From Antrihabitans stalagmiti (lineage in GTDB: Bacteria; Actinomycetota; Actinomycetes; Mycobacteriales; Mycobacteriaceae): a stretch of 64,000 bases of DNA. The position numbers were made by a program, and so were the translations under genes. The stretch's first letter is position 1, and each line of letters opens with the position of its first letter. Below are positions 37,710 to 58,474 of this stretch, piece by piece. Location of the stretch: the NCBI RefSeq assembly GCF_016482825.1, contig NZ_JAEMNV010000004.1, forward strand, positions 585,655 through 649,654, written 5' to 3'. The notes below the pieces were generated by a model. That model saw only the letters and a program-made list of their open reading frames with translations. It was not told the DNA's origin and did no database searches.

Positions 37710-38126
37710 GTGACCGTATTCGACGACATCCTCGCTGGTCGAGCGCCGGTGAGTCCGGTGTACGAGGACGACGACGTCTTCGCGTTTATGGACATTCGGC
37801 CGTTCACGCCCGGTCATCTGTTGGTGATCCCGAAGGTGCCCGCGCGCAGCCTCGCAGAGCTCGATCCCGCCGTCGGCGGCAAGCTGTTCCAGGTCGGGCA
37901 GCGGCTGGCGGCTGCGTTGCGGGCGAGTGAAGTCGCGTGTGATGGCGTGAACTTCTTCCTCGCCGATGGGGTTGCCGCAGGTCAAGAGGTATTTCACGTG
38001 CATCTGCACGTCATACCCCGCACCAGCGGCGACGGGTTCGGTCTGCGAGGCCGCCCGACGAGTCCGCGTCGTGCCGATCTGGACTACCTCGCCGGGTCGA
38101 TCAGTAGGGCGCTGCGCGCCTCGTGA
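37710..38126 (+). CDS. HIT-family protein
   Basis: A 138-residue HIT protein with the triad VFHVHLHVIPR and PGHLLVIPK. It follows purB by 6 nt and is probably cotranscribed; a purine-nucleotide hydrolase role would fit that context but is inference. GTG 37710 is the start. The last codons TCG TGA are in the left arm of a palindrome. Confidence 0.87.
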   Translation: MTVFDDILAGRAPVSPVYEDDDVFAFMDIRPFTPGHLLVIPKVPARSLAELDPAVGGKLFQVGQRLAAALRASEVACDGVNFFLADGVAAGQEVFHVHLHVIPRTSGDGFGLRGRPTSPRRADLDYLAGSISRALRAS

Positions 38127-38164
38127 GTCTTTTCGGACGGCCCAACCTCCAAAAGGACTCACGA
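38121..38164. repeat. Palindrome family A, copy 1
   Basis: TCGTGAGTC (38121-38129) plus TTTTCGG is inverted as CCAAAAGGACTCACGA up to 38164, an imperfect inverted repeat. Both convergent genes take their stop from it: TGA 38124-38126 on + (HIT protein) and TGA 38161-38159 on - (DUF2330 protein). Probable bidirectional terminator and member of a dispersed family (see 45961, 49859 and 55267). Confidence 0.75.
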
Positions 38165-39232
38165 CCGGTGTAGTCGGCCTGTTCGAACGATCGCGAACCC
38201 GAGAACCGCGAGACCGACCACGACGAACGCGCCGAGCGCGACCAGGAACGGTCCGCCCATGAACCCGAATATCCGCACGTCCTGCGAGACGTAGCGGTAG
38301 CGAACGTATTCGTCGTCGGTCGCCGCGTTCGAGAACTCGAAATCGGAGCTGATCTGCTTCGGATTACCGATGAACGTCGACAGCCGTGTCAGATACGCGC
38401 CTGACCCGACGAGTTCGGCGAGCTCGGGGTCGCTTGCGCCGTCGATTCGGCCGGCGAACTCGGTGTCGACGATCTGGGTGTCCGCGTCTGCGTCGCTGCG
38501 TCGCTGACGGTGCTCGGAAAGTGTGTAGACGGTGATGTCCTGAGATCGGTCTGCCGCGACGGACATTCGCATCGGATAGACCATGCGCGACGACGGAAAC
38601 GTCAAGGTGACGGGGTCGAGGCCACCGGCGAGGGGGACGTCGCTCGTGAGCCGCATCGCGACGAAAGCCCAGCCCTCCTCGAGGTACGGCGCCAGCGAGG
38701 CCGTCACCTCGGGCTTCATCGTGTAACCGTTCGTGGCGAGCCAGGTCTGTAGGCCGGGCAAGTCGCCGCCCGAGAGCGTCGTCGCTTCGAGCGGGCCGAG
38801 TCGGACCTGCGTGAGGACCGTGGGTCCGCCGCTTGGTGCGCCCGCGGTGGCGGTGTCGTATTCGCCACTCCCGCCGCTTGTTTCGCGACTTTCCCACCAC
38901 TGCAACTCGGTTCGGATGCGCGGGGCCGTCAATTCTTCCAATTCGTCGAACGTCGACGCCTTTCCGGCGGTCACCTCGGCGGGTGCCGGCGTCGGGATGA
39001 CGAGGGCGGCGTTGTCGCCGCTCGATTGCAGTGTCAACCGCATGACGATCGTCTCGATCGAACCGTCCCAATGCACAAGTGCTGCTTCGCCGTTCACAGC
39101 CGCGGCGGGGTCGGTGCTCACTACGCCGCCGCAGGCACACGCCGACGCCGGTGCAGCGGTGGTGGCAACGAAGCCCGCGAGAAGAAGGGCTAGGACGGTT
39201 GCAGGTCGACCGAGCAGGGCGTGGACGCGCAT
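38159..39232 (-). CDS. DUF2330 family exported membrane-anchored protein
   Basis: A 357-residue protein. A signal peptide (LLGRPATVLALLLAGFVATTAAPASA) precedes CACGGVV, the cysteine motif at the mature N-terminus typical of DUF2330. The extracytoplasmic region has VIPTPAPAEV and several tryptophan-rich segments, and a single C-terminal transmembrane helix (FLVALGAFVVVGLAVLGFAIV) anchors it with a short basic tail. Function unknown. ATG 39232 is the start. Confidence 0.8.
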   Translation of the reverse strand: MRVHALLGRPATVLALLLAGFVATTAAPASACACGGVVSTDPAAAVNGEAALVHWDGSIETIVMRLTLQSSGDNAALVIPTPAPAEVTAGKASTFDELEELTAPRIRTELQWWESRETSGGSGEYDTATAGAPSGGPTVLTQVRLGPLEATTLSGGDLPGLQTWLATNGYTMKPEVTASLAPYLEEGWAFVAMRLTSDVPLAGGLDPVTLTFPSSRMVYPMRMSVAADRSQDITVYTLSEHRQRRSDADADTQIVDTEFAGRIDGASDPELAELVGSGAYLTRLSTFIGNPKQISSDFEFSNAATDDEYVRYRYVSQDVRIFGFMGGPFLVALGAFVVVGLAVLGFAIVRTGRLHRS

Positions 39233-39364
39233 GGGACGACATTAGCGATCGCGGGCCTCGTCGACGGACGAGAAAGTGGTACGGATTCCGACAACACCGT
39301 GTCGAAGACCGGTGAAGTTCTCACTAATCACCGCGGACGCACGTGATGCCGATAGGGTGCCTTC

Positions 39365-40249
39365 GTGCGCCCATCATTGTCTTCGTACAAGTACCTCTCT
39401 CGTGGGAAGGTCCGCGAGCTCTACGCCATCGACGACGACTACATGTTGCTCGTCGCGACAGATCGCATTTCTGCCTACGACCATGTCTTGACAACGCCGA
39501 TTCCCGACAAGGGACGCGTGCTGACCGCGATGAGTTTCTTCTTCTTCGATCTGCTCGGTGCGGCGAATCATCTCGCGGGCGATCCGGAGGATCAGCGCAT
39601 CCCGGCCGAACTCGTCGGTCAGGCCATGGTGGTCAAGCGGCTGAAGATGATCGAGATCGAATGCGTCGCCCGCGGCTATCTGGTCGGGTCCGGCTTGGTC
39701 GACTACCAGAAGACGGGTGGCGTGTGCGGGATCCCGCTGCCGAAGGGCTTGGTCGAGGGCAGCAAACTCGACGACCCCATTTTCACACCGGCCACCAAGG
39801 CCGACATCGGTCAGCACGACATGAACATCGATTTCCAGACCGTGATCGACCAACTCGGCCCGGAGCTGGCGTTCAAACTGCGTGAAGACACTCTGGACAT
39901 CTACTTCCGCGCGTCGAACTACGCGGAGGGCAGGGGATTGATCCTTGCAGACACGAAGTTCGAGTTCGGCCTCGACAAGAACAACAACCTGATCCTCGCC
40001 GACGAGGTTCTCACGCCCGATTCGTCGCGTTACTGGCCTGCCGACGGCTACGCGGAGGGCAAAGGGCAGGCCAGCTTCGACAAGCAGTTCGTGCGCAATT
40101 GGTTGACCGGTCCCGATTCCGGCTGGGATCGCTCCTCGGACGAACCGCCACCGCCGCTTCCCGACGACATCGTCGCGGCTACGCGCACCCGCTACATCGA
40201 GGCTTACGAGCGGATCTCCGGACTCTCGTTCGCCGACTGGGTGCACTGA
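39365..40249 (+). CDS. purC: Phosphoribosylaminoimidazole-succinocarboxamide synthase
   Basis: A 294-residue SAICAR synthase. Evidence: [41 protein letters not shown] (ATP/substrate site) and [13 protein letters not shown], ending [18 protein letters not shown] 39365 begins the usual N-terminus. It is followed closely by an oligopeptidase gene, the same neighbour as in M. tuberculosis. Confidence 0.96.
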
Positions 40250-40272
40250 GGTCGTCCGCTACGGTTGACGCC

Positions 40273-42420: not shown

Positions 42421-42443
42421 GTTTCCGGGTTTGGTTCCGACGG

Positions 42444-43040
42444 CTACCCGGTGCGGAGGATGCCGGGTAGCCGGGCAGCGACCGCGTCGGCGGCGTCGCC
42501 TCTGAGCAAGAGTCGCACCAGCATGCTCGATCCGATGATCAGCAGCATGGTCGCCTGCGCGTCGAGCGCGGAATCCGTTGTCGCACCGTCGTTATCGAGC
42601 GTGTCGGACAGCATGTGCACAGCTGGTGAGCCGAACTGCCGCCACAGATTCGACTGTAGGTCGGGGTTGTCGCGCAAGGTCGCGAGCAGCCCGGGCAGTG
42701 CCGCTCGCACGTCGGGACGTCCGAACATGTCGAGGGTGTAGTCGAACGACTTCTCGACCCAGTCGTCGGCGCTTTGTGCCTCGGCGACGGGTACGTGGTC
42801 GGGTACCCAGCCGAAGACGGCTTCGAAGATCAGATGCGTCTTGGACGGCCAGCGCCGGTAGAGGGCGGGTTTGCCGACGTCGGCGCGTTCGGCGATGGCG
42901 ACCATGGTCGTCCGATCCCATCCGACCTCTGCCAGAAGCGTGCGGGCAGCGGCGAGAGCGGCGTCGTCGATGGCGGTGTCGCGCGGCCGTCCGGGGCGGC
43001 GGTCGCGGGGAGTGTCGTCGGGAGAAAGTGAGTCGACCAT
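42444..43040 (-). CDS. TetR-family transcriptional regulator
   Basis: A 198-residue TetR regulator. The HTH is at about 24-68 (ALAAARTLLAEVGWDRTTMVAIAERADVGKPALYRRWPSK), with the recognition helix GKPALYRRWPSK. The C-terminal ligand domain resembles the TetR_C_16-like group. It is divergent from a three-gene dehydrogenase cassette, and a strong palindrome lies between them, so it probably represses both itself and the cassette. Confidence 0.87.
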   Translation of the reverse strand: MVDSLSPDDTPRDRRPGRPRDTAIDDAALAAARTLLAEVGWDRTTMVAIAERADVGKPALYRRWPSKTHLIFEAVFGWVPDHVPVAEAQSADDWVEKSFDYTLDMFGRPDVRAALPGLLATLRDNPDLQSNLWRQFGSPAVHMLSDTLDNDGATTDSALDAQATMLLIIGSSMLVRLLLRGDAADAVAARLPGILRTG

Positions 43041-43050
43041 TGCCGAATAT

Positions 43051-43094
43051 CGTAACGCGGCGTTACGTTGAATGTATCGTTACATCGCGTTACG
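43051..43094. promoter_or_regulatory. TetR operator cluster
   Basis: CGTAACG-CGG-CGTTACG (43051-43067) is a perfect 7-3-7 palindrome. GTTAC recurs at 43079-43083 and GTTACG at 43089-43094 in one orientation. The cluster fills the gap between the TetR gene and the SDR gene it probably controls. Confidence 0.7.
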
Positions 43095-43131
43095 TTATGG
43101 TCCCGACCGCACCTCGACAGAAGAGAATTGT

Positions 43132-43914
43132 ATGTCCCAGCTGCTCGAAGGCAAGACGGTTGTCGTCTCCGGCGTCGGTACCGGACTCGGCCGCGAAATC
43201 GCTGTCGCTGCGCGCCGCGATGGTGCCAACGTCGTGCTCGGCGCCCGCACCGAAGCCAACCTGAAGGCCGTCGCCGACGAGTTGGATCCGAGCGGCACGC
43301 ATGTTCGGTACGTCGTCACCGACATCATGGATCGACAGGGCTGCGCGGGACTGATTTCCACTGCCGTCGACGAATTCGGTGGCGTGGACGCACTTTTCAA
43401 CGTTGCCGCCAAAGAAGACGTGTTCGGCGGTCTCGCCGGTGCCGACCTCGAAGGTTGGCGAGCCATGTTGGACGCCAACGTGATCGGGACGCTGCAGCTT
43501 GTTCAGGAGGCGCTGCCCGCGCTCGAAAAGGGTGGGGGATCGGTGGTGTTCATCGGTACACAATCGTCGTTTCATCCGCAGATCCCGCAGGCGGCATACG
43601 CAACATCCAAGGGCGCACTGCACGCGGCGATGTTCTCACTCGCCCGTGAGCTCGGCCCGAAGAAGATTCGCGTGAACATGGTTGTGCCGACGTGGATGTG
43701 GGGTCCCAACGTCGAGCTGTACGTGCAGATGACAGCTAAACATCGCAAGGTGCCCGAAGCGGACGTCAAGGCGAAAATCACCAAGAACATGCCGCTCGGT
43801 GAAATTCCCGAAGACGGCGACGTCGCAAACGCGGCCGTCTTCTTCGCATCCGACTACGCGCGCATGGTCACCGGTCAGACGATCTTCGTCAACGCAGGCG
43901 AGTACTTCCGCTAG
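43132..43914 (+). CDS. Short-chain dehydrogenase/reductase
   Basis: A 260-residue SDR. SGVGTGLGREIAVAARRDGANVVLGART is the cofactor-binding start, with arginine after the second strand suggesting NADP(H). FNVAAKED replaces the usual NNAG, and FIGTQSS..QAAYATSKGAL gives the Ser and Tyr-x3-Lys residues. ATG 43132 has AGAAGAGA ahead. First gene of a TetR-controlled cassette; substrate unknown. Confidence 0.88.
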   Translation: MSQLLEGKTVVVSGVGTGLGREIAVAARRDGANVVLGARTEANLKAVADELDPSGTHVRYVVTDIMDRQGCAGLISTAVDEFGGVDALFNVAAKEDVFGGLAGADLEGWRAMLDANVIGTLQLVQEALPALEKGGGSVVFIGTQSSFHPQIPQAAYATSKGALHAAMFSLARELGPKKIRVNMVVPTWMWGPNVELYVQMTAKHRKVPEADVKAKITKNMPLGEIPEDGDVANAAVFFASDYARMVTGQTIFVNAGEYFR

Positions 43915-43945
43915 ACAGAGGGCGACTCGAGAAAGGTCGATTACT

Positions 43946-45019
43946 GTGTCGCACAAAGTTATCGTGTGGGGTACCGGAGTTGTCGGCAAGCTTGTCATCC
44001 GTGAGCTGTTGGATCACCCCGAGTTCGAACTGGTCGCCGTGATCGTGCACGACCCCGCCAAGGACGACATCGATGTCGGCGAACTCGTCGGCGCCGAGCA
44101 GTGCGGACCGAGCGCAACAACCGACATCGATGCCGCGTTGGCCATCGACGCGGATGCGGTTGCGTACTTCGGTCCGACAGCCGAATATGCGGTCCAGAAC
44201 ATCGACAACATGTGTCGATCGCTGCGGTCGGGCAAGCACGTCGTATCGACCTCGATGACACCGCTCGTGTATCCCAAGCCGTGCCCGCGGGAGCTGAGGT
44301 CGGCGTTGGAGCAAGCTTGTCTAGACAGCGGAAAAGCCTGTTTCACAACAGGAATCGACCCGGGATTCGCGAACGACCTGTTCCCGATGACGCTGCTCGG
44401 CGTGTGCGGTCGGGTCGACACTGTGCGGGTTCAAGAACTGCTCGACTATGCCAACTACGCGGGTGACTACAAGGCCACGATGGGTATCGGTGCGCCTCTG
44501 GATACGCAAGCGATCCTGCAAATTCCCGAGATTCTGATCTTCGCGTGGGGCCACACGATTCCGATGATCGCCGACGCGGTCGGAGTCGAATTGGACCGCA
44601 TCGACACCGTCTACGAAAAATGGCCTGCGACAGAGGCGATCGTCTATCCATACGGGGTGATCGAGCCCGGCCAGACGGCGGCGGTGCGGTTCGAGATCCG
44701 CGGCTGGGTCGGCGCCGAGGCGAAGATCGTGATCGAACACGTCAACCGAATCACCAATGCCGCAGCGCCACACTGGCCGCGGGCTACCTCGGTCGAGAAC
44801 GATGTTTACCGCGTGATCATCGAAGGAAGCCCGAACATCACGCAGGAGACCGCATTTCGGGGCGGTCCCGACAACGATCCGATCGCCGGCGGCTGCCTCG
44901 CGACGGGAATGCGGGCGATCAATGCGATACCCGCACTGGCCGGCCTCGCCCCGGGACTCGTTTCGGCACTGGATCTTCCGTTGATTCCCGGCCGCGGCAC
45001 CATCAGGACGCGCTTGTGA
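43946..45019 (+). CDS. Dihydrodipicolinate reductase-like NAD(P)-dependent oxidoreductase
   Basis: A 357-residue protein with Rossmann start KVIVWGTGVVGKLVIRELLDHP, the DapB-like STSMTPLVYPKP segment, and TGIDPGFANDLFPMTLLG. This family includes 2,4-diaminopentanoate dehydrogenase-type enzymes and many actinobacterial proteins of unknown substrate. GTG 43946 has GAAAGG upstream. Middle gene of the cassette; its stop overlaps the next GTG. Confidence 0.82.
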   Translation: MSHKVIVWGTGVVGKLVIRELLDHPEFELVAVIVHDPAKDDIDVGELVGAEQCGPSATTDIDAALAIDADAVAYFGPTAEYAVQNIDNMCRSLRSGKHVVSTSMTPLVYPKPCPRELRSALEQACLDSGKACFTTGIDPGFANDLFPMTLLGVCGRVDTVRVQELLDYANYAGDYKATMGIGAPLDTQAILQIPEILIFAWGHTIPMIADAVGVELDRIDTVYEKWPATEAIVYPYGVIEPGQTAAVRFEIRGWVGAEAKIVIEHVNRITNAAAPHWPRATSVENDVYRVIIEGSPNITQETAFRGGPDNDPIAGGCLATGMRAINAIPALAGLAPGLVSALDLPLIPGRGTIRTRL

Positions 45020-45966
45020 ACATTCTGTTGACCGGTGCGTTCGGAAACATCGGATCCGCGGTACTTGCGGAACTGTTGTCTCGCGGTCACCGGGTTCGGT
45101 GCTTTGCCAAGGACACTCGTGCCGACAGGAAGCGAGCCGAGGCCTTTTCGTCCGTCGACGATGTTCGATGGGCAGACATCCGTGATCCCGATGCGGTATC
45201 GGGCGCAGTGGCAGGTGTCGACGTGGTGCTGCATTTCGCCGCGATGATTCCGCCCGCCAGCGAAGCGGCACCGGCGCTCGCTCGGCAGATCAACGTCGAC
45301 GGCACCGCCAACGTCATCGCGGCGTGTCAGCGTCAGACCACGCCGCCCAGACTGATCTTCGCGTCGACCTTCGACGTCCACGGCAACACCCTCGACAAAC
45401 CGCCCCCACGGAGAGTCGACGATCCCCTGCAGGCCATCGACGCCTACAGCGGTCACAAGATCGAATGCGAAGCGCTGGTGCGGAAGTCGGGCCTCGACTG
45501 GTTCATCCCACGCTTCGTCGATGTGCCGATCATAGGGATCAGGCCCGCCGAACCGATCATGTTCGAGATCGGACTGCACAACCGAATCGAAGTCCTGCAT
45601 CCACGCGATGCTGCACTGGCCATGGCGAACGCGCTCGAGACCGACGAAGTCTGGGGCACAACGCTGTTCATCGGTGGAGGCGCGAGTTGTCAGGTCACCT
45701 ACCAGGAGTTTCTGACGCGGATTCTCGCCGCGATGGGGCTGTCACCGTTGCCTGCGAGGGCGTTCAGTGACAAGGCCTACGCGACCGATTGGGTCGACAC
45801 GGACGAGAGCCAGCGACTGTTGAACTATCAGCGCTACGACTTCGACGCGATCACGGCCGACATCGCCGCGACGTTGGGGTGGAAGCGGTATCTGATGCCG
45901 GTCGCCCGCCCGCTGGCGCGTCGCTCGATGTTGAAAATGTCTCCCTATTGGCCTTCGGCCTCGTGA
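45016..45966 (+). CDS. NAD(P)-dependent epimerase/dehydratase family protein
   Basis: A 316-residue extended SDR. NILLTGAFGNIGSAVLAELLSRGH is the cofactor loop, VLHFAAMIPPAS the conserved strand, and FASTFDVHG with YSGHKIECEALVRKSG carry the Ser and Tyr-x3-Lys. GTG 45016 overlaps the upstream stop. The C-terminal end (WPSAS, TCG TGA) is inside a palindrome arm. Substrate unknown. Confidence 0.85.
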   Translation: MNILLTGAFGNIGSAVLAELLSRGHRVRCFAKDTRADRKRAEAFSSVDDVRWADIRDPDAVSGAVAGVDVVLHFAAMIPPASEAAPALARQINVDGTANVIAACQRQTTPPRLIFASTFDVHGNTLDKPPPRRVDDPLQAIDAYSGHKIECEALVRKSGLDWFIPRFVDVPIIGIRPAEPIMFEIGLHNRIEVLHPRDAALAMANALETDEVWGTTLFIGGGASCQVTYQEFLTRILAAMGLSPLPARAFSDKAYATDWVDTDESQRLLNYQRYDFDAITADIAATLGWKRYLMPVARPLARRSMLKMSPYWPSAS

Positions 45967-46004
45967 GTCCTTTCGGTGGTCAGGCCCTCCGAAAGGACTC
46001 ACGA
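45961..46004. repeat. Palindrome family A, copy 2
   Basis: TCGTGAGTCCTTTCGG (45961-45976) is inverted exactly at 45989-46004. The preceding GGCCTTCGGCC is identical to that before copy 4. Again both convergent genes end in TCG TGA read from the arms: + at 45964-45966 and - at 46001-45999. Confidence 0.8.
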
Positions 46005-46703
46005 GCCGCTTGCGGCCTTCCAGATATAACGAACCTGCGGACGACCCGCCCGACCGTATTCGGTCTGCCTCTCGACGATGCTGTCGTCGGCGAGCTTTTC
46101 GAGGTACCGCCACGCCGTTACTCGCGATACCCCGACCGCCAACCCGACCTCTGCGGCACCGAGACCGTCCGCTGAATCCCGTACCGCTCGGGCGATTTCG
46201 TCCAGGGTCTGTGGTGCAACACCTTTGGGTGAGGCCGAACGTTCTTCCGGCGATCGCAGAACGCCCATCGCACGGTCGATATCGCGTTGACTGACAGCGG
46301 TTTCACCCGCAGTCAACGCTTTTCGGTACTCGACGTAGCGGTCGAGTTTGTCCCGGAACGCCGAGAACGTGAACGGCTTGAGCAGATACAGCACAACTCC
46401 GTGCGCGACCGCCGACCGCACCATCGCGAGGTCGCGTGCCGAGGTTATCGCAATGACATCGGGGCTCGGCCTGGTACCGGTAAATGCTGCAGCAACATCG
46501 AGTCCACTGATGTCGGGAAGGCCGATGTCCATAAGCACCAGATCGATCGGGGTACCGGCCGCCGCTGCGTTCGCCGCTGCTCGCATCGCATCGCGACCCG
46601 TATGGGCGACTCCCGCGACCTCGAATCCCGCGACGCGATCCACATACGTTCGGTGTGCTTCGGCGATCAAGATCTCGTCTTCGACGATGAGTACTCGAAT
46701 CAT
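45999..46703 (-). CDS. CitB/DcuR-type response regulator
   Basis: A 234-residue response regulator: receiver with VEDE at 8-10, phosphoacceptor Asp59 (LVLMDIGLPDISGLD) and Lys109 (YLLKPFTF). A C-terminal winged-helix segment follows, with LGAAEVGLAVGVSRVTAWRYLEKL, as in DcuR/CitB regulators. ATG 46703 overlaps the kinase stop (ATGA). With the divergent dctA it should control C4-dicarboxylate uptake; that assignment is from context. A much longer open frame upstream is spurious. Confidence 0.87.
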   Translation of the reverse strand: MIRVLIVEDEILIAEAHRTYVDRVAGFEVAGVAHTGRDAMRAAANAAAAGTPIDLVLMDIGLPDISGLDVAAAFTGTRPSPDVIAITSARDLAMVRSAVAHGVVLYLLKPFTFSAFRDKLDRYVEYRKALTAGETAVSQRDIDRAMGVLRSPEERSASPKGVAPQTLDEIARAVRDSADGLGAAEVGLAVGVSRVTAWRYLEKLADDSIVERQTEYGRAGRPQVRYIWKAASGS

Positions 46704-48283
46704 CGTCGGCCTCGGGTTCCCGTGCGTGGAATCGACACCACGACAGCGGCTTCGGGCTCCTGCTCGGCAACTATCGTGCCGCCATGGCGAGCGACCAACT
46801 GGCTGACCAGAGCAAGCCCCAACCCCCGGTGATCTTCCTTGGTCGAGTATCCGCGGCCGGTCGCCTTGGCGAACTGTTCGGTACTCAGGCCCGGACCACT
46901 GTCGGCGACTCTGACCACGAGTTGCGAATCTACCTCGTGGACAGTCACTTCGACCCAGGCATCGGCGGAGGAGAGGGCGGCGTCGATCGCATTGTCGGTC
47001 AGGTTGCCGATCAAGGTGACTGCCTCGGTCGTCGATAGGGGAGCAGACGACGCCAAGGCGGTCTCCTCGCTGACCGACAGTTCGACACCCCGTTCGGCGG
47101 CCTGTCCGATCTTGCCGAGCAACAGTGCTGCCAGCGCAGGCTCGTGTACCGACCCCATTAACCGGTCGATGAGGTGTTGCGACAGTGCAAGTTCCGATGT
47201 CGCGAACTGGACGGCGTCGTCGTAGCGGCCGAGTTCGACCATGGTGATGACTGTGTGTAACCGATTGGCGGACTCGTGAGCTTGAGATCGCAACGATTCG
47301 GCGAATCCGCGAACCGAGTCCAATTCGCCCATGACACTTTGCAATTCGGTGTGATCGCGGATCGTCAACACTGTCGCGACCACCCGGCCGTCGAACTCGA
47401 CAGGGTCGGTGTTCACGACGAGCACTCGGTTGGTCGTCACGTGCATCTCGTCGCGAATCGACAAAGGTGACAGGTCGCGCATGGATTCGGGCAGGTCGGT
47501 GCGGCGCACCGGACCCGCCGGCAGGTCGAGCAACCGTCGTGCCTCGTCGTTGACGACGTCGGCGACGTCGGGGGAGTCGACGCCGAACACAACAAGGCCC
47601 TCGTGAATCGAATGCAGTACGGCGTCGTTGTGCTCGTACATGGTGCGAAGTTCGTCGGGCGCCATACCGTGCGTCTGGCGTCGCAGCCGACGACTCAGCA
47701 ACCACGAACTGACAACTGCCATTGCGAGGCCTGCTGCCGTGATGCCGAGAATGATCGGCAGGCCACGCGTCACCTGCTCACCGATACGCGCCCGCGTCAC
47801 TCCCGCTGACACCAGTCCCACAATCGCGCCGCCGTCGTCGTAGACGGGCGTAACCGACCGAATGGACGGCCCGAGCGATCCCGCGTACGTCTCGGTGAAG
47901 GTTTCACCCGCGAGTGCCTGATCGATGTTGCCGGAGAAGAGTTGGCCGATCAGCTCGGGGTTCGCGTGCGTGTAGCGCGTGCGATCCGGCGCCATGACGA
48001 CGATGAAGTCCATCCCCGTCGCGAGTCGGATGCGTTCGGTCTCCGGCTGCAATATCGCGGTCGGGTCCGCCGACTGCAACGCATCCGCGGTCGAGCGTGC
48101 CTGCGCCAAACTCACGGCGATGCCAACGACCTCTTCCCGGGTTGCAGAGTCGCTGTCACGCCGTGCATCGACGATCGCGAGGACGGTACCTGCGGCGATG
48201 ACGATCGTCAGCACCAAAAGCTGCAGGACGAGGACCTGCCGCGCGAGCGAAACGCGCCCCGCCGTCACACGTCCTCGGGTCAC
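46700..48283 (-). CDS. CitA/DcuS-type sensor histidine kinase
   Basis: A 527-residue kinase. TM1 (about 15-38) and TM2 (about 170-195, LPIILGITAAGLAMAVVSSWLLS) enclose a PAS-like extracytoplasmic sensor with RYTHANPELIGQLFSG, the pattern of citrate/dicarboxylate sensors. A cytoplasmic PAS (YEHNDAVLHSIHEGLVVFG) precedes the dimerisation helix with phospho-His in LRSQAHESANRLHTV. The ATPase domain has NLTDNAIDA, VADSGPGL and HRGLGLALV. GTG 48283 has AAGGAGG 5 nt upstream, which overrides the longer frame. Confidence 0.88.
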   Translation of the reverse strand: MTRGRVTAGRVSLARQVLVLQLLVLTIVIAAGTVLAIVDARRDSDSATREEVVGIAVSLAQARSTADALQSADPTAILQPETERIRLATGMDFIVVMAPDRTRYTHANPELIGQLFSGNIDQALAGETFTETYAGSLGPSIRSVTPVYDDGGAIVGLVSAGVTRARIGEQVTRGLPIILGITAAGLAMAVVSSWLLSRRLRRQTHGMAPDELRTMYEHNDAVLHSIHEGLVVFGVDSPDVADVVNDEARRLLDLPAGPVRRTDLPESMRDLSPLSIRDEMHVTTNRVLVVNTDPVEFDGRVVATVLTIRDHTELQSVMGELDSVRGFAESLRSQAHESANRLHTVITMVELGRYDDAVQFATSELALSQHLIDRLMGSVHEPALAALLLGKIGQAAERGVELSVSEETALASSAPLSTTEAVTLIGNLTDNAIDAALSSADAWVEVTVHEVDSQLVVRVADSGPGLSTEQFAKATGRGYSTKEDHRGLGLALVSQLVARHGGTIVAEQEPEAAVVVSIPRTGTRGRR

Positions 48284-48351
48284 TCGGCCTCCTTCGACAC
48301 GCCGGTTTCGGTTTGGGCAACCGAGCCTTTGTGAACGTAATGAACGCAATC

Positions 48352-48365
48352 GTGACTCACATCAC
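48352..48365. promoter_or_regulatory. CRP/GlxR-like site 1 upstream of dctA
   Basis: GTGA-CTCACA-TCAC matches GTGA-N6-TCAC, the core of the CRP/GlxR consensus TGTGAN6TCACA. It is centred about 82 bp upstream of the dctA start. Confidence 0.55.
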
Positions 48366-48396
48366 GTCCGCAGGCCAACATTCTTACTGAGGCGAA

Positions 48397-48410
48397 GTGA
48401 TTCACCTCAC
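48397..48410. promoter_or_regulatory. CRP/GlxR-like site 2 upstream of dctA
   Basis: GTGA-TTCACC-TCAC is a second GTGA-N6-TCAC site, centred exactly 45 bp from the first. It lies about 37 bp upstream of dctA. A cAMP-responsive regulator of the GlxR type is the likely ligand, by analogy. Confidence 0.55.
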
Positions 48411-48440
48411 TTCACCACCCGACACGGGAGAGGACACCAG

Positions 48441-49844
48441 ATGACTACTCGCAATATTCGCCCTGATGACAACCCAGTAACCGAGAAGCCCAAGAAGAGG
48501 GACAAGACCCACTGGCTCTACATGGCGGTCATCGTCGCTGTGTTCGCGGGCATCCTGGTCGGCTGGCTAGCGCCCGATACCGGTAAGTCGTTCGGCGTGC
48601 TCGGCACGATGTTCATCAGCCTGATCAAGATGATGATCAGCCCGGTGATCTTCTGCACGATCGTGCTCGGCATCGGATCGGTCAAAGCCGCGGCAAGCGT
48701 CGGCAAGGTCGGTGGCCTCGCACTCGCCTACTTCATCACCATGTCGACCGCCGCACTCGGAATCGGCCTTCTGGTCGGCAACCTCCTGCAGCCAGGCAGC
48801 GGTCTCGACATCTCCGAAAATGTCGGAGCGGGCGCCGACTACGCCGAGAAGGCACACGGTGCCGGCGGAACGATGGACTTCTTCCAGAGCATCATCCCGA
48901 CGTCGCTGCTGTCCTCGCTCACGGCAGGCAGCGTGTTGCAAACCCTCTTCGTTGCCCTCCTCGTCGGCTTCGGTCTGCAGGCGATGGGCAAGGCGGGCGA
49001 GCCGATCGTTCGTGGCGTCGGGCATCTGCAGAAGCTGGTCTTCCGCATCCTGGCGATGATCCTGTGGCTCGCACCGATCGGCGCCTTCGGTGCCATCGCG
49101 AATGTGGTCGGCCAGACCGGACTCGACGCGGTCGTGCAACTCGGCACCTTGATGCTTGCGTTCTACATCACCTGTGCAATCTTCGTCTTCGGCATCCTCG
49201 GCCTGATCCTGAAGTTCGTCTCCGGCTTCTCGATCTTCCGCCTGGTTCGCTACTTGGCGAGGGAGTACCTGCTCATCGTCGCCACGTCGTCCTCCGAGTC
49301 TGCGCTGCCCCGCTTGATCGCCAAGATGGAGCACCTCGGCGTGGAGCGCACCACCGTCGGAGTTGTTGTCCCGACCGGATATTCGTTCAACCTCGACGGC
49401 ACCGCGATCTACCTCACGATGGCGTCGATCTTCATCGCCGACGCCATGGGACAGCCGCTCGCACTGAGTGAACAGCTCGGACTGCTCGCCTTTATGATCG
49501 TCGCTTCCAAGGGCGCCGCCGGCGTCAGCGGTGCAGGCCTTGCGACACTCGCCGGTGGACTGCAGAGCCACCGTCCGGAACTGCTCGACGGTGTCGGCTT
49601 GATCGTCGGAATCGACCGGTTCATGTCGGAAGCTCGTGCAGTGACCAACTTCTCGGGCAACGCAGTCGCCACGATGTTGGTCGGCACCTGGACGAAGACT
49701 ATCGACAACGACAAGGTCAAGGCAGTCTTCGACGGCAACGATCCATTCGACGAGGAGACCATGGTCGACGACCACGGTCCGGCCCCCGAAGATGACGCGA
49801 GGCCCTCGAACGAGGGACCAGCGAAAGAGAAAGCGCTGGTATAG
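48441..49844 (+). CDS. dctA: C4-dicarboxylate:cation symporter DctA
   Basis: A 467-residue DAACS-family transporter for succinate, fumarate or malate. It shows eight or so hydrophobic segments, the serine-rich re-entrant motif ATSSSESALPRL, the substrate/ion motif PTGYSFNLDGTAIYL and the second hairpin SKGAAGVSGAG. A hydrophilic acidic tail ends the protein. ATG 48441 has GGGAGAGGA upstream. Divergent from the dicarboxylate-type two-component genes, which should induce it. Confidence 0.92.
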   Translation: MTTRNIRPDDNPVTEKPKKRDKTHWLYMAVIVAVFAGILVGWLAPDTGKSFGVLGTMFISLIKMMISPVIFCTIVLGIGSVKAAASVGKVGGLALAYFITMSTAALGIGLLVGNLLQPGSGLDISENVGAGADYAEKAHGAGGTMDFFQSIIPTSLLSSLTAGSVLQTLFVALLVGFGLQAMGKAGEPIVRGVGHLQKLVFRILAMILWLAPIGAFGAIANVVGQTGLDAVVQLGTLMLAFYITCAIFVFGILGLILKFVSGFSIFRLVRYLAREYLLIVATSSSESALPRLIAKMEHLGVERTTVGVVVPTGYSFNLDGTAIYLTMASIFIADAMGQPLALSEQLGLLAFMIVASKGAAGVSGAGLATLAGGLQSHRPELLDGVGLIVGIDRFMSEARAVTNFSGNAVATMLVGTWTKTIDNDKVKAVFDGNDPFDEETMVDDHGPAPEDDARPSNEGPAKEKALV

Positions 49845-49858
49845 GGTCCCGCGCTACA

Positions 49859-49901
49859 CGTGAGTCCTTCCGGGGTGTCCAGTCCTCCGGAAGGACTCAC
49901 T
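49859..49901. repeat. Palindrome family A, copy 3
   Basis: GTGAGTCCTTCCGG (49860-49873) is inverted exactly as CCGGAAGGACTCAC (49887-49900). Compared with copies 2 and 4 the TTTCGG core is changed to TTCCGG on both arms, so the change is compensatory. It lies downstream of dctA in a tandem gene arrangement and does not supply a stop codon. Confidence 0.8.
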
Positions 49902-49980
49902 CGTGTGTACGGCCAGTTTGTCGGGCCGAGTTCATTCTCGGGGAACGACCTGTACACCTTCGGCTGCGACAGTGAAACCC

Positions 49981-50682
49981 ATGAGCGGTGAACTGATCGT
50001 TTCGATTTCCGGTATCAGGACCGAAACCCTTTCCGCCGCGACCGACTTCGCCGATGCGATGGATGGTCGCGGTGTTCGGCTTTCCCTCCTGGTCGCGCCA
50101 CGGCTGCCAGACAAGTATCGGCTCGTGCGTGACGAGCACACGCAGGAATGGTTGCGCGCCAGGCGTGATGGTGGCGACGCCATCGTCTTGCACGGCTACG
50201 ACCAGGCAGCGACGAAGCGCCGTCGAGCGGAGTTCGCGGCCCTCCCCGCACACGAGGCTCGGCTACGGCTCATCGCCGCTGACCGTGTCCTCGAAGAAAC
50301 CGGTTTGCGGACAAGAATTTTCGCTGCACCACAGTGGTCCGCATCGGACGGAGCGATGGCAGCGCTACCTGGTGCGGGTTTCCGCGTCGCTGCCGGTCTG
50401 AGTGCGATCCACGACTTGGACCGCGGCGACTCCGTGCGCGCGCGGGTTCTCGGAATCGGTGAGGGGTTCCGAGCAGAGCCGTGGTGGTGCCGAGCGTTGG
50501 TCATGGGTGCCGGCCGGATTGCGCGCAAGGAAGGCACACTCCGGCTTGCGATCTCGGCGAAGCAACTCGGCCGATCGGGGCCGCGCCAGGCATTGCTGGA
50601 CGCGGTCGATCTCGCGCTGCACCACGGCGCGAACTCCGATGTCTACCGGTCGATGTCGGAGCCGCAGTCCCGCGCTGCCTGA
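49981..50682 (+). CDS. DUF2334-type polysaccharide deacetylase-like protein
   Basis: A 233-residue protein. It fits the DUF2334 group of NodB-like fold proteins: LSLLVAPRLPDKYRLV, AIVLHGYDQ (in place of the usual metal-ligand HGxxH region) and FAAPQWSASDGAMAALPGAGF. The full set of deacetylase metal ligands is not obvious, so activity is uncertain. ATG 49981 is chosen over an earlier in-frame start because it removes an unconserved leader that overlaps the palindrome. Confidence 0.7.
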   Translation: MSGELIVSISGIRTETLSAATDFADAMDGRGVRLSLLVAPRLPDKYRLVRDEHTQEWLRARRDGGDAIVLHGYDQAATKRRRAEFAALPAHEARLRLIAADRVLEETGLRTRIFAAPQWSASDGAMAALPGAGFRVAAGLSAIHDLDRGDSVRARVLGIGEGFRAEPWWCRALVMGAGRIARKEGTLRLAISAKQLGRSGPRQALLDAVDLALHHGANSDVYRSMSEPQSRAA

Positions 50683-50689
50683 CCTGCCG

Positions 50690-51337
50690 TCAGCGCAACT
50701 GCAGTGCTTCCTCTTCCGGTAGCACCCGGAATTCCGTTCCCGCGGAGGCCAGTTCCTTCAGCCGCGCGTAGTAGATGCCGCGGCCGGCGTCGGAGACGAC
50801 CTCCTGGTGAATCGGAAATGCGAATCGTGGTGCGACAGCGCGGAGGTAGTCGACGGTCTCGCTGAGCTTCATCCATGGAGCCGCCGCGGGGAGTGCGAGG
50901 ATGTCGACCGAGACGTCCGGGACGAACAGTGAATCCCCGGGATGCAGCAGCCTGCCGGGTTCGTCCTTCGTGCCGAGCAGATAGGCGATGTTGTCGACCA
51001 ACGGGAGATCCGGATGGATGACGGCGTGAGTTCCGCCTGCCCCCGTGACCTGGATGCCGCCGACGTCGAACACGTCGCCCGCGCGCACGGCGGTCCACGC
51101 CGGACCGAACTTCGCCGCGGTCTGCGGATCGGCGTACAACTTGGCGCCGGGATTCGCCTCGACCAGCGCCGGCAGTCGATCGGCGTCGGCGTGATCGGCG
51201 TGCTGGTGGGTGATGAGGATGGCGTCGAGGCCGCCGATGCCTTCGAAACCGTGAGAAAACGATCCAGGGTCGAAGAGGATCTTCGTGTCGCTGTCTTCGA
51301 CGAGGATGCAGGAGTGCCTGAAGTGACTCATTCGCAT
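50690..51337 (-). CDS. MBL-fold metallo-hydrolase
   Basis: A 216-residue metallo-beta-lactamase-fold protein. The metal motif is LITHQHADHADADRL (HxHxDH), with HPGDSLFVPDVSVDILALP and FPIHQE completing the site. It resembles the UlaG-like group. The start is ATG 51337 or 51331; the longer frame adds 38 residues without family features. Substrate unknown. Confidence 0.85.
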   Translation of the reverse strand: MRMSHFRHSCILVEDSDTKILFDPGSFSHGFEGIGGLDAILITHQHADHADADRLPALVEANPGAKLYADPQTAAKFGPAWTAVRAGDVFDVGGIQVTGAGGTHAVIHPDLPLVDNIAYLLGTKDEPGRLLHPGDSLFVPDVSVDILALPAAAPWMKLSETVDYLRAVAPRFAFPIHQEVVSDAGRGIYYARLKELASAGTEFRVLPEEEALQLR

Positions 51338-51451
51338 ACGTACGAGTATGCGCCGGAACGTCGCTGTGGTGGACCGGTAAACTCCATGGTCGTCGAACCT
51401 TTCAAGGTTCTCCAGCGCCGAAGAACCGCAGTATCGAGCGAGGAGTTTCAC

Positions 51452-51688
51452 GTGGCCCGAGTCGTGGTCGATGTCATGCCGAAGGCTGAGATCCTGGATC
51501 CGCAGGGGCAGGCCATAGTCGGCGCACTGCCACGCCTCGGATTCGATGGTGTGTCCGACGTGCGGCAGGGCAAGCGTTTCGAACTCGAAGTCGACGACAA
51601 CGTCGACGACACCGAGTTGGAGAAGATCGCCGAATCACTGCTGTGCAACACGGTGATCGAGGACTGGAAAGTGACACGTCTGCCATGA
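51452..51688 (+). CDS. purS: FGAM synthetase subunit PurS
   Basis: A 78-residue PurS. It has [33 protein letters not shown] and a C-terminal [10 protein letters not shown], all diagnostic. PurS bridges PurQ and PurL in the three-part FGAM synthetase. GAGGAG is 7 nt ahead of GTG 51452. Its stop overlaps the purQ ATG. Confidence 0.95.
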
Positions 51689-52362
51689 CCGCCAAGATCG
51701 GTGTCATCACATTTCCGGGGACCCTGGACGACGTCGATGCAGCACGCGCTGTCACGCTCGCCGGTGCCGAACCCGTCGCACTGTGGCACGCGGACGCCGA
51801 CCTCAAGGGCGTCGACGCAGTTGTGGTGCCGGGTGGCTTCTCGTACGGCGATTACCTCCGCGCGGGAGCAATTGCACGATTCGCCCCGGTGATGGGCGAA
51901 GTGATCCGGGCGGCAGGTACGGGCCTGCCGGTGTTGGGCATCTGCAACGGCTTCCAGGTGCTCTGTGAAGCCGGATTGCTGCCAGGCGCATTGACCCGCA
52001 ACGAAGGTCTGCACTTCATCTGCCGTGACCAGTGGCTGCGCGTCGACTCGAACTCCACGGCCTGGTCGTCGCGATACGAGGTCGGTGCCGAGATCTTGGT
52101 GCCACTCAAGTCGGGCGAAGGCCGTTTCCAGGCATCCGAGCAGGTGCTCGACGAGTTGGAGGGCGAAGGTCGCGTTGTTTTCCGATACTCGGGCGACAAC
52201 CCGAACGGCTCGCAGCGTGGAATCGCCGGTATCGCCTCGGCGAACGGTCGGATCGTCGGCCTGATGCCGCATCCGGAACATGCAACCGAAGCATTGACCG
52301 GACCGAGCGACGATGGGCTCGGGTTGTTCCTTTCGGTGCTCGACTCGCTGGTGTCCGCATAA
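51685..52362 (+). CDS. purQ: FGAM synthetase glutaminase subunit PurQ
   Basis: A 225-residue class I glutamine amidotransferase. The nucleophile is Cys in [27 protein letters not shown] is the PurQ-specific segment and GLMPHPEHA carries the His/Glu pair. ATG 51685 overlaps the purS stop, giving stoichiometric expression. It supplies ammonia to PurL, whose gene is about 6 kb downstream. Confidence 0.96.
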
Positions 52363-52381
52363 CAGATGGTCGTGTCGCGGA

Positions 52382-53599
52382 TTGACTGAGTCGACTCCGC
52401 CCGCCCGCGGCTCGTTGCTTCGACGGAACGCGTCGTTCCGTTTGCTGTGGTCGTCACGGGCGACGTCGTATCTCGGTGAATCGCTCGGTCTGGTTGCGCT
52501 GCTCGTGCACCTGGAGGGCACATCGCGCGCAGCGATTGCGGCAGCAATGCTGCTTGTCGCATGCGACTTCGTGCCAGGTCTGTTCGGGCCGCTGGCGGGT
52601 GCAATCGCCGATAGGTTCGATCTGCGTCGCGTAATGATCGGATGTGAGGTCGCGCAGGCGTTGCTGACGGCGGTCATTGCCATCTGGCTGCCTGAGCTGC
52701 CGATATTGCTTCTGCTCGTCGCAATTCGAGGTTTTGCCGCACAGATCTATCTGCCCGCATCTCGTAGTGCCGTCCCAAGTCTCGTCGACGATCGAGACGT
52801 CGAGTCGGCGAATTCGACTCTCGGCGCAGGAACCTACGGACTCGAAGCAGCCGGACCACTTGTCGCTGCAGCACTCTTCGGGCTGCTCGATGTGCGCGGA
52901 CTACTGCTGATCACCGCCGCTAGTTATCTGATCGCTGCAGTCGTTCTGGTTGCACTCCCGAAACTGCCGTCCGCTCGCGTAGATATCGAGCAAGGCCTTA
53001 TCACTTCGACGCGAGCCGGGATCGGCTTCCTCTGGTCGGCACCGGCAATCCGGGTGATCGCCGTCGGCTTCTTCGCGATCGTCGCATTCAACGGCGTCGA
53101 CGATGTGGCCTTGGTGTTTCTCGCGAAAGACTCACTGCACGGCAGTGATTCGGAGGCCGCGGCACTGTACGCGGGTGTCGGCATCGGACTGGCGATCGGC
53201 TATCCGCTGTTGGCGCGCTATGCATCCCGCTTCCCCACGCTCGCTCTGTTGATCGTGGGGTTCGGCATCAGTAGCCTCGGCAATCTCGCAACCGGACTCG
53301 CCGGTGTCGTGATCACGGCGTTGCTGATTCAGATCGTTCGAGGGCTCGGGCTGACGGCATTGGATGTCGCAATCAACACCCACTTACAGCGGACCGTGCC
53401 GCGCGAGGTGCTGGGCCGGGTATTCGGCACGCTCTATGGTTTGGTCGGCGTCGCAGCAGGGCTTTCGTATCTTTTCGGCGGCATCCTGCTCCAGTTGACC
53501 GACGCTCGAACGACTTTCGTGGTCGCCGGCGTCGGTGGGCTGCTGGTGACCGTGGTGACGGCACTCGCGCTGCGACGGGTCAGTTCTTCGACATCTTGA
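52382..53599 (+). CDS. MFS transporter
   Basis: A 405-residue major facilitator of about twelve helices. LLRRNASFRLLWSSRATSYLGE, GAIADRFDLRRVMIG (loop 2-3 signature) and LQRTVPREVLGRVFGTLYG resemble the enterobactin-exporter-like/H+ antiporter-3 group. The start is TTG 52382 with no strong ribosome site, so it is tentative. Substrate unknown. The 3' end overlaps the convergent YiaA/B-like gene by 20 nt. Confidence 0.82.
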   Translation: MTESTPPARGSLLRRNASFRLLWSSRATSYLGESLGLVALLVHLEGTSRAAIAAAMLLVACDFVPGLFGPLAGAIADRFDLRRVMIGCEVAQALLTAVIAIWLPELPILLLLVAIRGFAAQIYLPASRSAVPSLVDDRDVESANSTLGAGTYGLEAAGPLVAAALFGLLDVRGLLLITAASYLIAAVVLVALPKLPSARVDIEQGLITSTRAGIGFLWSAPAIRVIAVGFFAIVAFNGVDDVALVFLAKDSLHGSDSEAAALYAGVGIGLAIGYPLLARYASRFPTLALLIVGFGISSLGNLATGLAGVVITALLIQIVRGLGLTALDVAINTHLQRTVPREVLGRVFGTLYGLVGVAAGLSYLFGGILLQLTDARTTFVVAGVGGLLVTVVTALALRRVSSSTS

Positions 53600-53864
53600 A
53601 CGGCGCATCGTGTTCGGTGATCAACCGTTCCATGCGGGCCTCGCGCAGCATCGCCTCTTCCTGCTGATCACGGACCACCTTCGCCAGCGTGAAGCAACTG
53701 GTCACGAGGAACAACGCCGTCATGATCAAGAAGCCCTTCTGCCACGGATCGATCGGCAGATAGTAGACGCCGACAAGAGTGCCGAAGAGGCTGACGCCGA
53801 ACGCGACGACTGCCTGGATATAGAACGCGGTGGTGTTGCGGGACTTCGCAGTTGGGGTTGTCAT
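53580..53864 (-). CDS. YiaA/YiaB two-helix-domain membrane protein
   Basis: A 94-residue protein with two hydrophobic helices: TTAFYIQAVVAFGVSLFGTLVGVYYLP and WQKGFLIMTALFLVTSCFTLAKVVRDQ. The YLPxxxWxKGFL..F.L..S..TLAKxxRD pattern is the YiaAB domain. A charged helical tail follows. Function unknown; probably an inner-membrane protein. Confidence 0.82.
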   Translation of the reverse strand: MTTPTAKSRNTTAFYIQAVVAFGVSLFGTLVGVYYLPIDPWQKGFLIMTALFLVTSCFTLAKVVRDQQEEAMLREARMERLITEHDAPFKMSKN

Positions 53865-53979
53865 GCCACAAAATTGTGCCGGTGGGTGCTGCTCGGCACG
53901 TGAGTACGACTACTCGAGACGGTTGGGTAGTTCCGCCGCGCGGCGCCGCGCGCCTGCGGTGCAGGCATAATCTCGGTGC

Positions 53980-55254
53980 ATGCCGCCGACAACGAACGCG
54001 ACCGCAACCCGATTGTGCACCTTCATCGACGCGTCGCCGTCACCGTTCCATGTCTGCGCGACGGTCGCCGCCCAGTTGACTGACGCCGGTTTCGTCGAGT
54101 TGGCCGAGGCGGCCGCGTGGCCTGTCTCCGAAGGCAAGTACTTCGTCGTCCGAGGCGGGTCGCTCGTTGCGTGGAGTACCGAGGGTGTCGCGCCGCTTGC
54201 TCCGTTCCGGATCGTGGGTGGCCACACGGACAGCCCGAACCTGCGCGTCAAGCAGCATCCCGATCTGACCTCGGCCGGGTGGCAGTTGGTCGGACTGGAA
54301 CCCTATGGCGGCGCGTGGCTGAACTCGTGGCTCGATCGCGACCTCGGTCTGTCGGGACGGCTCGCGGTTCGCGTTGGAAATGTTGTGCAGCAGAAGCTGG
54401 TTCGGGTCGATCGGCCGATCTTGCGGGTGCCGCAACTCGCGATCCACCTGAGCGAAGACCGCAAAGGTGTGCACCCCGATCCGCAGCGCCACGTCAACGC
54501 CGTGTGGGGAACCGGCACGTCGCCGGGCCTGATCGAGTACCTGGCCGCTGAGGTCGGCGTGGATGCGGATGCGGTCCTCGGTTGGGAGTTGATGACGCAC
54601 GACCTGGCGCCCAGTAGCGTGATCGGTGTCGAATCCGACTTGGTCAGCGCGCCGCGACTCGACAATCAGGGCACCTGCTATGCGGGGACACAAGCGTTGC
54701 TCGCCGCGGTGCAGGAGCCCGGATCGGTCGTTCCAGTGCTGGCATTGTTCGACCACGAAGAGGTCGGCAGTACCTCCGACCGTGGCGCGCAATCCGATCT
54801 GTTGAACACGGTGCTGGAGCGGGTCGTCCTTGCGGCCGGTGGCGGGCGTGAGGAGTTTCTGCGGACGATGTCGGAATCCGTCTGCGCCTCAGGCGATATG
54901 GCGCACGCGACGCATCCGAACTATCCGGATCGGCACGAGCCTGCCCATCGCATCGAGATCAACGGCGGTCCGGTTCTCAAGGTGAACCAGAATTTGCGTT
55001 ATGCGACAGACGCTTCCGGCGCGGGAGTGTTTGCCTTGGCCTGCGAGCAGGCGGGAGTTCCCTTGCAGCGCTACGTACATCGAGCAGATCTGCCGTGCGG
55101 TTCGACGATCGGTCCGATCACAGCGGCGCGCACAGGTCTGTCGACTGTCGACGTGGGTGCGGCGCAGCTCGCGATGCACTCGGCCCGTGAGCTGATGGGT
55201 GCCCACGATGTTGCCGCCTACGCGGCCGCTCTCGCAGCGTTTCTAGGGCCGTAG
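53980..55254 (+). CDS. pepC: M18 family aminopeptidase
   Basis: A 424-residue M18 metallo-aminopeptidase. [16 protein letters not shown] starts the family N-terminus, and the two-zinc site is built from [28 protein letters not shown] and [15 protein letters not shown], plus [20 protein letters not shown] near the end. It is cytosolic and removes N-terminal residues from peptides. In M. tuberculosis the corresponding pepC lies a few genes before purL, as here. Confidence 0.93.
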
Positions 55255-55266
55255 GGGCCTTCGGCC

Positions 55267-55310
55267 TCGTGAGTCCTTTCGGAGGTCCGGTCCTCCGAAA
55301 GGACTCACGA
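55267..55310. repeat. Palindrome family A, copy 4
   Basis: The most perfect copy: TCGTGAGTCCTTTCGGAGG (55267-55285) is inverted without mismatch at 55292-55310 around TCCGGT. It sits 12 nt after the pepC stop and ahead of the type VII-like cassette, and shares the upstream GGCCTTCGGCC with copy 2. Confidence 0.85.
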
Positions 55311-55391
55311 GCAGCGTGCTGCCTCCTGGAACCGTTTCTCGTTTTCCCGCGTCCAAGTTGAGTAGAGGACAACGGTTTACGAGGGGGAGTG

Positions 55392-56343: not shown

Positions 56344-56346
56344 GTC

Positions 56347-58330: not shown

Positions 58331-58474
58331 TGCACTGGTGGCGGGCGTCACGCCTGTGCACTGGCGAAGCATGAGGTGTCGTGGTACCCGTCTAGACTCG
58401 ATGCAGGCTTCTCACCGCGGCGACGCCTTTTCGCCCCGCATCGCCAGCTCAGGTCGAAAGGACACCCCACCTCC

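Follow-up and report, generated by a model that had tools for sequence, protein, structure and literature searches.

A REP-like and possibly mobile palindrome family at gene 3' ends in Antrihabitans stalagmiti

The 6.39 Mb genome of Antrihabitans stalagmiti contains 190 copies of a palindrome, referred to here as family A (at most 3 mismatches; the reversed control gave 0). We lean towards regarding it as a REP-like, non-autonomous mobile palindrome that forms hairpins and settles at gene 3' ends, its transposition being deduced from sequence comparison. This reading is based on the copy number, the conserved primary sequence, the compensatory changes in the mini-hairpins, the location at gene ends and the mostly non-shared positions. 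The same observations support the initial annotation, where a REP-like mobile or functional element was preferred to unrelated terminators.

Four copies, none assigned to a strand, are found in the window, i.e. the whole stretch of 64,000 nucleotides that was analysed. The arm GTGAGTCCTTTCGG is matched 8 times in the window, in four inverted pairs (at most 2 mismatches; 0.58 matches expected), and none of 100 shuffled windows reached this number, which bears out the earlier report of four palindromes with a common arm. Far from being absent elsewhere, the arm is abundant genome-wide at the same threshold, with 447 matches versus 22 in the reversed control. Copy 1 (full element 38106..38180, right limit approximate) displays an AG edge, a left mini-hairpin (38108-38120), an imperfect right flank and an imperfect 40-nt core (38123..38162) with the unequal arms GTGAGTCTTTTCGG and GTGAGTCCTTTTGG. 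This core gives a TGA stop to the convergent genes on both sides (37710-38126 on the plus strand and 38159-39232 on the minus strand), both stopping at the TGA within GTGAG. Copy 2 (45950..46018; 40-nt core 45963..46002) is flanked by mini-hairpins at 45950-45960 and 46005-46016, and the TGA inside its core, again within GTGAG, ends both convergent genes (45016-45966, plus strand; 45999-46703, minus strand). Copy 3 has a 41-nt core (49860..49900) without typical mini-hairpins; the change from TTTCGG to TTCCGG on both of its arms, noted previously, is confirmed, and the upstream gene ends with a TAG stop 15 nt before the core. Copy 4 (55253..55324; 40-nt core with perfect arms, 55269..55308) carries mini-hairpins at 55256-55266 and 55311-55322, and its AG edge (55253-55254) is part of a TAG stop. 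The upstream sequence said to be common to copies 2 and 4 was found again as GGCCTTCGGCC, one of the left mini-hairpin types. All copies had been placed just after genes and outside of them; the latter does not quite hold for copies 1 and 2, as these overlap the last codons of the flanking genes. No family A copy was found at the four sites in the three other Antrihabitans genomes where the flanking gene was readable.

The complete A. stalagmiti element measures about 74 bp. Its central 40-nt palindrome leaves a 6-nt loop open and has a 5-bp mini-hairpin on either side. The centre reads GG-KYNNRM-CC. Among 63 sampled copies the arms are near-invariant and the loop takes 32 forms. A scan at fixed spacing, which overlooks variant forms (window copy 3 and two more among them), yielded 63 copies at 0-4 mismatches, one at 7 and none at 8-10, decayed copies being therefore scarce. 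Mini-hairpins are present on 74 of the 126 sides, and their left and right types are unlike in 32 of the 36 fully typed copies (shuffle p 0.003). In 42 copies, 89.7% of the cells are paired versus 83.2% in shuffles and 88 double-change cells are counted versus 46.1, the compensatory changes falling mainly in the mini-hairpins. The centre avoids perfect palindromy, with 7 self-complementary central pairs versus 26.2 expected. Upon folding of six sequences, the RNA hairpins were strong (z -4.4 to -11.2) and the inverted arms paired; three hairpins were obtained in 3 of the 6 copies as DNA and in 1 of the 6 as RNA, the others forming one long hairpin. No Rfam family matches the copies at the gathering score, the single match of the window being a tRNA. 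Copies 2-4 are absent from the 10 sites returned by a terminator scan of positions 44001-64000, a range outside of which copy 1 lies, and the flanks of the listed copies show no regular T run. Terminator-like ordinary hairpins with different stems were seen by eye elsewhere in the genome.

An AGG edge could be anchored on 78 of the 126 sides. GTAG occupies this edge on 16 of them (13 of 50 gene-facing sides and 3 of 28 others), and a T precedes the edge AG on 35 of the gene-facing sides and 9 of the others. MITEs such as the IS630-like, ERIC and Correia elements are bordered by a target-site duplication, usually TA. Among the 25 of 63 copies anchored on both sides, T|A occurs at the edges of 8 and just 2 show a 2-nt match, which amounts to no real target duplication; a simple TA-duplicating MITE was accordingly rejected.

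A second genome of the genus, very probably that of A. stalactiti, possesses its own palindrome subfamily (186 matches) with the centre AGTCYNNRGACT and without 5-bp mini-hairpins on any of 86 sides. No match was obtained in two other Antrihabitans genomes. The occurrence is patchy, with matches in 2 of the 4 genomes of the genus and in 9 of 301 from the family, and the core is mostly 40 nt long among the matches listed, which cover three genera. In 88 ortholog-like gene pairs a copy is found at 16 ends in each species and at 3 ends, representing two sites, in both; 13 of the 16 copy-bearing A. stalagmiti ends lack a copy in A. stalactiti. This comparison covers about 1.1 of the 6.8 Mb of A. 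stalactiti plus loci selected for holding a copy, and the sampled stretches contributed 0 of 10 shared ends, the selected loci 3 of 6. At these ends each species bears its own centre type, and at one site the flanks adjoining the palindrome look alike by eye. Homogenisation in place or reuse of a site would explain the shared sites as well as movement does.

The position of the copies relative to stop codons is precise. Only 1 of the 63 sampled copies lies in the interior of a called gene, many others overlapping last codons. Within 60 nt of a copy, 74 gene 3' ends face it and 64 of these stop at the element edge or at the TGA of GTGAG; for several gene pairs the element takes in the ends of both members. 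Convergent gaps hold 23 of the 63 copies though they represent just 195 of 1027 gaps, and divergent gaps hold 10. In the A. stalactiti-like genome, 21 of 43 copies lie between convergent and 2 between divergent genes, and 56 of 62 facing stops are located at -4 to +25 nt. Orthologous C-termini of the edge class, for the pairs readable in both species, shift by -4 to +1 residues. Such precision exceeds what insertion tolerance alone would predict.

The palindrome is also the target of an insertion sequence with the end motif CATGTAT.TAGACA, which sits at one fixed point in all 14 ends read in A. stalagmiti and, at the same point, in all 7 ends found in A. stalactiti. Its body is missing from the A. 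stalagmiti assembly. As two protein fragments gave nothing convincing in NCBIfam or Pfam, it is left without family assignment; a search for plasmid relatives gave no match. An IS21-like identity was rejected, none of the 5 loci matching PF22483 in the genome carrying the end motif. The RAYT-type transposase suggested in the initial annotation was not recovered: PF01797, which detects its family in 5 of 14 control genomes, has 0 matches in both the A. stalagmiti and A. stalactiti-like genomes. Inspection of 1.26 Mb by eye revealed no gene enclosed by a lone pair of arms, and an autonomous element with the arms as terminal repeats was discarded on this ground.

Several explanations can be weighed against these data. 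Chance GC-rich hairpins or unrelated terminators, which would accord with the unrelated-sequence hairpins also present in the genome, are refuted by the counts (8 versus 0.58 in the window, 447 versus 22 and 190 versus 0 genome-wide) and retain practically no probability. An improbable explanation is a DNA site, either cruciform or protein-bound, serving chromosome organisation or a nucleoid protein: self-complementarity on both strands and the mostly 40-nt core of the matches listed in three genera are in its favour, but neither the placement at stop codons nor the two matchless genomes of the genus would be expected of a basic chromosome function, and the centre avoids perfect palindromy. 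A bidirectional terminator or protector of mRNA 3' ends, selected copy by copy, with a trans-acting factor reading the arm and with spread or homogenisation as secondary effects, deserves more attention, though we consider it rather unlikely. The numbers of copies between convergent and between divergent genes in both species, the position of the facing stops in the A. stalactiti-like genome, the strong RNA hairpins, the near-invariant arms versus the variable loop, the few decayed copies and the two common sites all suit it. Against it stand the lack of a T tract at copies 2-4 and of an Rfam match, the ordinary terminator-like hairpins with other stems in the same genome, the 13 of 16 orthologous ends without a copy and the fact that terminators need no common primary sequence.

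The patchy occurrence, the species-specific versions and the insertion sequence at one point of the palindrome also speak for the mobile palindrome. This reading has difficulties of its own, namely that no mobilising gene was found in either genome, the two sites shared with the sister species, where each copy has the centre of its own species, the few decayed copies and a stop-codon precision sharper than insertion tolerance predicts. It would require that an enzyme other than recognisable Y1/RAYT proteins copies the element, and that it depends on the shape of the hairpin and on the conserved arm but not on the loop letters. Copies would persist where the stop codon is kept, so that they would accumulate on gene ends, become transcribed hairpins and perhaps terminate or protect the transcript; as RNA hairpins they may thereby serve the host. 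The insertion sequence would find in the palindrome a place where it can land safely. More tentatively, the family may represent a RAYT-independent class of mobile palindromes in Nocardiaceae homing to stop codons, whose mobiliser would recognise the strand with unlike mini-hairpin ends and open centre and place it at or inside last codons. If so, roughly two hundred sites per species would be equipped with one portable stop-plus-hairpin cassette, alike within the species.

Most known REP-type palindromes come from proteobacteria, and RAYT enzymes are linked to them (see also PMC3733652). Among the papers listed under the arm sequence or under REP-like repeats of Rhodococcus, Nocardia or Actinobacteria, no title or opening part of an abstract describes family A. 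A family of similar abundance in an actinobacterial genome where the search for a RAYT came up empty raises anew the question of how such repeats are moved; host genes adopt the stop codon and hairpin of the repeat, and the same repeat serves an insertion sequence in two species. Conserved-sequence hairpins repeated at many Mycobacteriales genes include the TRIT terminator. The mycobacterial CGAAA-N19-TTTCG motif is another such hairpin present at many genes, according to PMC5217627. Family A resembles both as a repeated conserved-sequence hairpin in Mycobacteriales but has the opposite polarity (TTTCGG...CCGAAA) and no T tract. The survey of REP-targeting insertion sequences (PMC1525189) lists the IS3, IS110, IS4, IS256 and IS5 families and describes the fixed landing point as their habit, which is matched here by all copy ends read. 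CGTC REPs, reported without dedicated transposase and mainly from one proteobacterial division (PMC3733652), are similar in that no dedicated transposase was found for family A, whose arm sequence is different. The termini of GTAG REPs often supply a TAG stop to flanking ORFs (same source), as do the edges of family A for neighbouring genes, yet these read GTAG on only 16 of 78 anchored sides and no RAYT was found. Actinobacteria are said to carry TnpA of subclass 1.1 only (PMC6006769). Family A differs from the REP/REPIN systems mobilised by RAYT (TnpA-REP) in its actinobacterial host, in the Y1/RAYT gene not found in A. stalagmiti and in mini-hairpins that are unlike at the two ends; it resembles them in being short, palindromic, extragenic, of high copy number, located at gene ends and targeted by an insertion sequence.

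The initial annotation had described the four inverted repeats of the window as a REP-like mobile or functional element. The recurrence on which that view was built was confirmed in the window and in the whole genome. In the window, GTGAGTCCTTTCGG (at most 2 mismatches) occurs eight times as four inverted pairs versus 0.58 expected, and none of 100 shuffles reaches eight; the corresponding cores lie at 38123-38162, 45963-46002, 49860-49900 (41 nt) and 55269-55308 (copies 1 to 4 of family A). Over the 6.39 Mb of the assembly, which has 44 contigs and holds the window at C34:585655-649654, 447 arm matches at ≤2 mismatches were obtained versus 22 for the reversed control, together with 190 full palindromes at ≤3 mismatches versus 0 in that control; exact palindromes of the first pattern number 23. 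Close study was devoted to 1.264 Mb, namely positions 1-400000 of contigs C34 and C12, 1-340000 of C41, 60 kb of C1 picked for its matches, and the window. A fixed-spacing scan of this sample with a 46-nt consensus returned 63 copies with 0-4 mismatches, a single one with 7 and none with 8-10; length and stem variants escape it, among them window copy 3, of 41 nt, and two further copies, all seen by other means. Two of the three matches kept at 11-12 mismatches are copies interrupted by an insertion sequence. No two of the 63 copies are identical and 59 distinct cores are represented. In the copies at C12:15313 and C34:365092 the upper stem is swapped for a different sequence that also pairs (TTCTTCAGG...CCTGAAGAA or the like). 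This genome also has another family of dispersed palindromes, TTCGGGTCGGTGTGC...GCACACCGACCCGAA, at C34:238745, 242710 and 284505 and at C12:76289 and 115845.

The family A consensus reads AG, mini-hairpin, TC, GTGMGTCYTTTCGGNGG-KYNNRM-CCNCCGAAARGACKCAC, GA, mini-hairpin, CT. A perfect mini-hairpin (5-bp stem, 3-nt loop) occurs on 74 of 126 sides versus 1 of 630 control windows farther out; its stems are of types GCGGC, GGCGC, GCCGC and others, both strands being altered in concert, and its loop is for the most part TNC. The 29-pair structure was evaluated on an alignment of 42 copies (40 of the 56 listed reference copies plus window copies 2 and 4). Paired cells amount to 89.7% versus a shuffled mean of 83.2, cells altered on both sides to 88 versus 46.1, and pairing falls to 43-52% when the partner is shifted by 1-3 columns. 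The number of pairs with a double change (12) is unremarkable, as 67 of 500 shuffles reach it. The arm is mostly invariant and tells little about pairing; the mini-hairpins and column pair 27/52 provide most of the support for the structure. Simple pairing has exceptions, column pairs 34/45, 23/56 and 36/43 being unpaired in 23, 11 and 10 of the 42 copies, respectively. The central dinucleotide, mostly GG or CC, is self-complementary in 7 of 63 copies versus 26.2 expected under independence, and the loop-closing pair is likewise anti-complementary (18 versus 30.6 expected). Among those of the 63 copies typable on both sides, the two mini-hairpins are of unlike types in 21 of 24 by strict typing and in 32 of 36 by looser typing (25.4 expected, shuffle p 0.003). 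The non-complementary centre and unlike mini-hairpins point away from a single long perfect palindrome. Of six copies folded as DNA, window copies 1 and 4 plus one more give three hairpins; as RNA, window copy 4 alone does so, and the rest adopt one long hairpin.

Location relative to genes was assessed in the larger sample, genes being called with a custom codon-usage script rather than a standard caller. The 63 copies occupy 23 convergent, 29 tandem and 10 divergent gaps, with one inside a called gene; the sample holds 195, 636 and 196 gaps of these types. Within 60 nt of an element there are 74 gene 3' ends that face it: the stop falls at the element edge, 12-17 nt short of the core, in 44, coincides with the TGA of GTGAG in 20 and has another position in 10. 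Comparably close facing ends are found for 73 of 74 at elements versus 17.8% for random points in element-free gaps, a contrast somewhat overstated as this null lacks the 60-nt limit. Since element-free convergent gaps are short (median 12 bp), some overlap of the element with both genes is expected. In the sister genome, very probably A. stalactiti (G001; 1.124 Mb sampled, partly selected for holding copies), 43 copies comprise 21 in convergent, 20 in tandem and 2 in divergent gaps, and 56 of 62 facing stops have positions of -4 to +25 nt relative to the core; a perfect mini-hairpin was found there on 0 of 86 sides.

Among 61 genomes (this one, three of the genus, the rest from the family and order), palindrome matches were restricted to this genome and G001. 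A looser pattern matched 9 of 301 family genomes: this one (150), G001 (186), two of one genus with arm GTGCGTCCTTTGGG (9 each) and five genomes belonging to another genus (1-2 matches each). An exact pattern, searched in the genomes of 84,980 species, a collection that may omit the window's own genome, gave 31 stretches, of which 24 belong to A. stalactiti and 5 to three Rhodococcus species; single matches in a Desulfobulbaceae bin and a Cytophagales bin were taken for chance.

The palindrome is also an insertion-sequence target. The repeat end of such a sequence occurs only near contig ends of this assembly, from which its body is absent. Two kinds of end, at 8 and 6 contig ends (C2, both ends of C3 and of C4, C5, C8, C12, both ends of C23, C34, C41, C42 and C44), adjoin in all 14 cases a family A palindrome interrupted at one fixed point, following TTTNGG. 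All 7 pattern-found ends of G001 are inserted at that point of its own palindrome subfamily; no match to the end was found in the other two genus members, G002 and G003, both also devoid of palindrome matches.

Positions were compared with A. stalactiti through 88 ortholog-like gene pairs (at least 65% identity). A copy lies at the gene end in 16 pairs here, in 16 there and in both in 3; common ends account for 0 of 10 in fetched G001 stretches and 3 of 6 in loci fetched for holding a copy. They represent two sites, C34:313269 and C41:161655/162192, and at both of these each species has a centre of its own type. At C34:313269 and its counterpart L134:6494 the copy follows the same gene and the adjoining flank is alike by eye although the centres differ, a hint of homogenisation in place. 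A small lipoprotein-like ORF lies between the two copies at C41:161655 and 162192, where A. stalactiti (L127) has a single copy, placed between the same convergent genes. At the four window sites no family A copy was found in G001, G002 or G003 wherever a flanking gene was readable; G001 has one close by, one gene off from copy 1. At the place orthologous to copy 3, G003 (L180) carries a different palindrome, TGTGCGCGG..., whose 42-nt family also occurs here at C12:6758 and 72985. On this evidence most sites are not common to both species, and a minority may represent old sites that were homogenised, or sites used repeatedly.

The 63 copies display 32 loop forms on arms within about one mismatch per copy. 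Such variable loops and near-constant arms are compatible with long persistence of a population of young copies, the model put forward for REPINs (PMC8049555), but also with selection acting on each copy. As for target duplication, a 2-nt match outside the ends was seen in 2 of the 25 copies that could be anchored at both sides. The linked RAYT-type transposase that the initial annotation proposed to look for was not found here: Y1_Tnp (PF01797) has no match in this genome, G001, G002, G003 or six of the seven other carriers. The one match (L202, G219:C21:158500-158862) is in one of two GTGCGTCC genomes, a carrier of the GTGCGTCCTTTGGG subfamily. Any mobiliser would thus be lost or other than a recognisable Y1/RAYT transposase.

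Family A works like a REP element, being a short, abundant, structured gene-end hairpin former and insertion-sequence target. Membership in a RAYT-driven REP/REPIN family is not established because the search for its defining enzyme was negative here. Both a stop codon supplied by the repeat (GTAG REPs) and the lack of a dedicated transposase (CGTC REPs) have been described before, in PMC3733652. What looks new is family A itself, together with the group that hosts it, the unlike ends of its form and how tightly it is placed.
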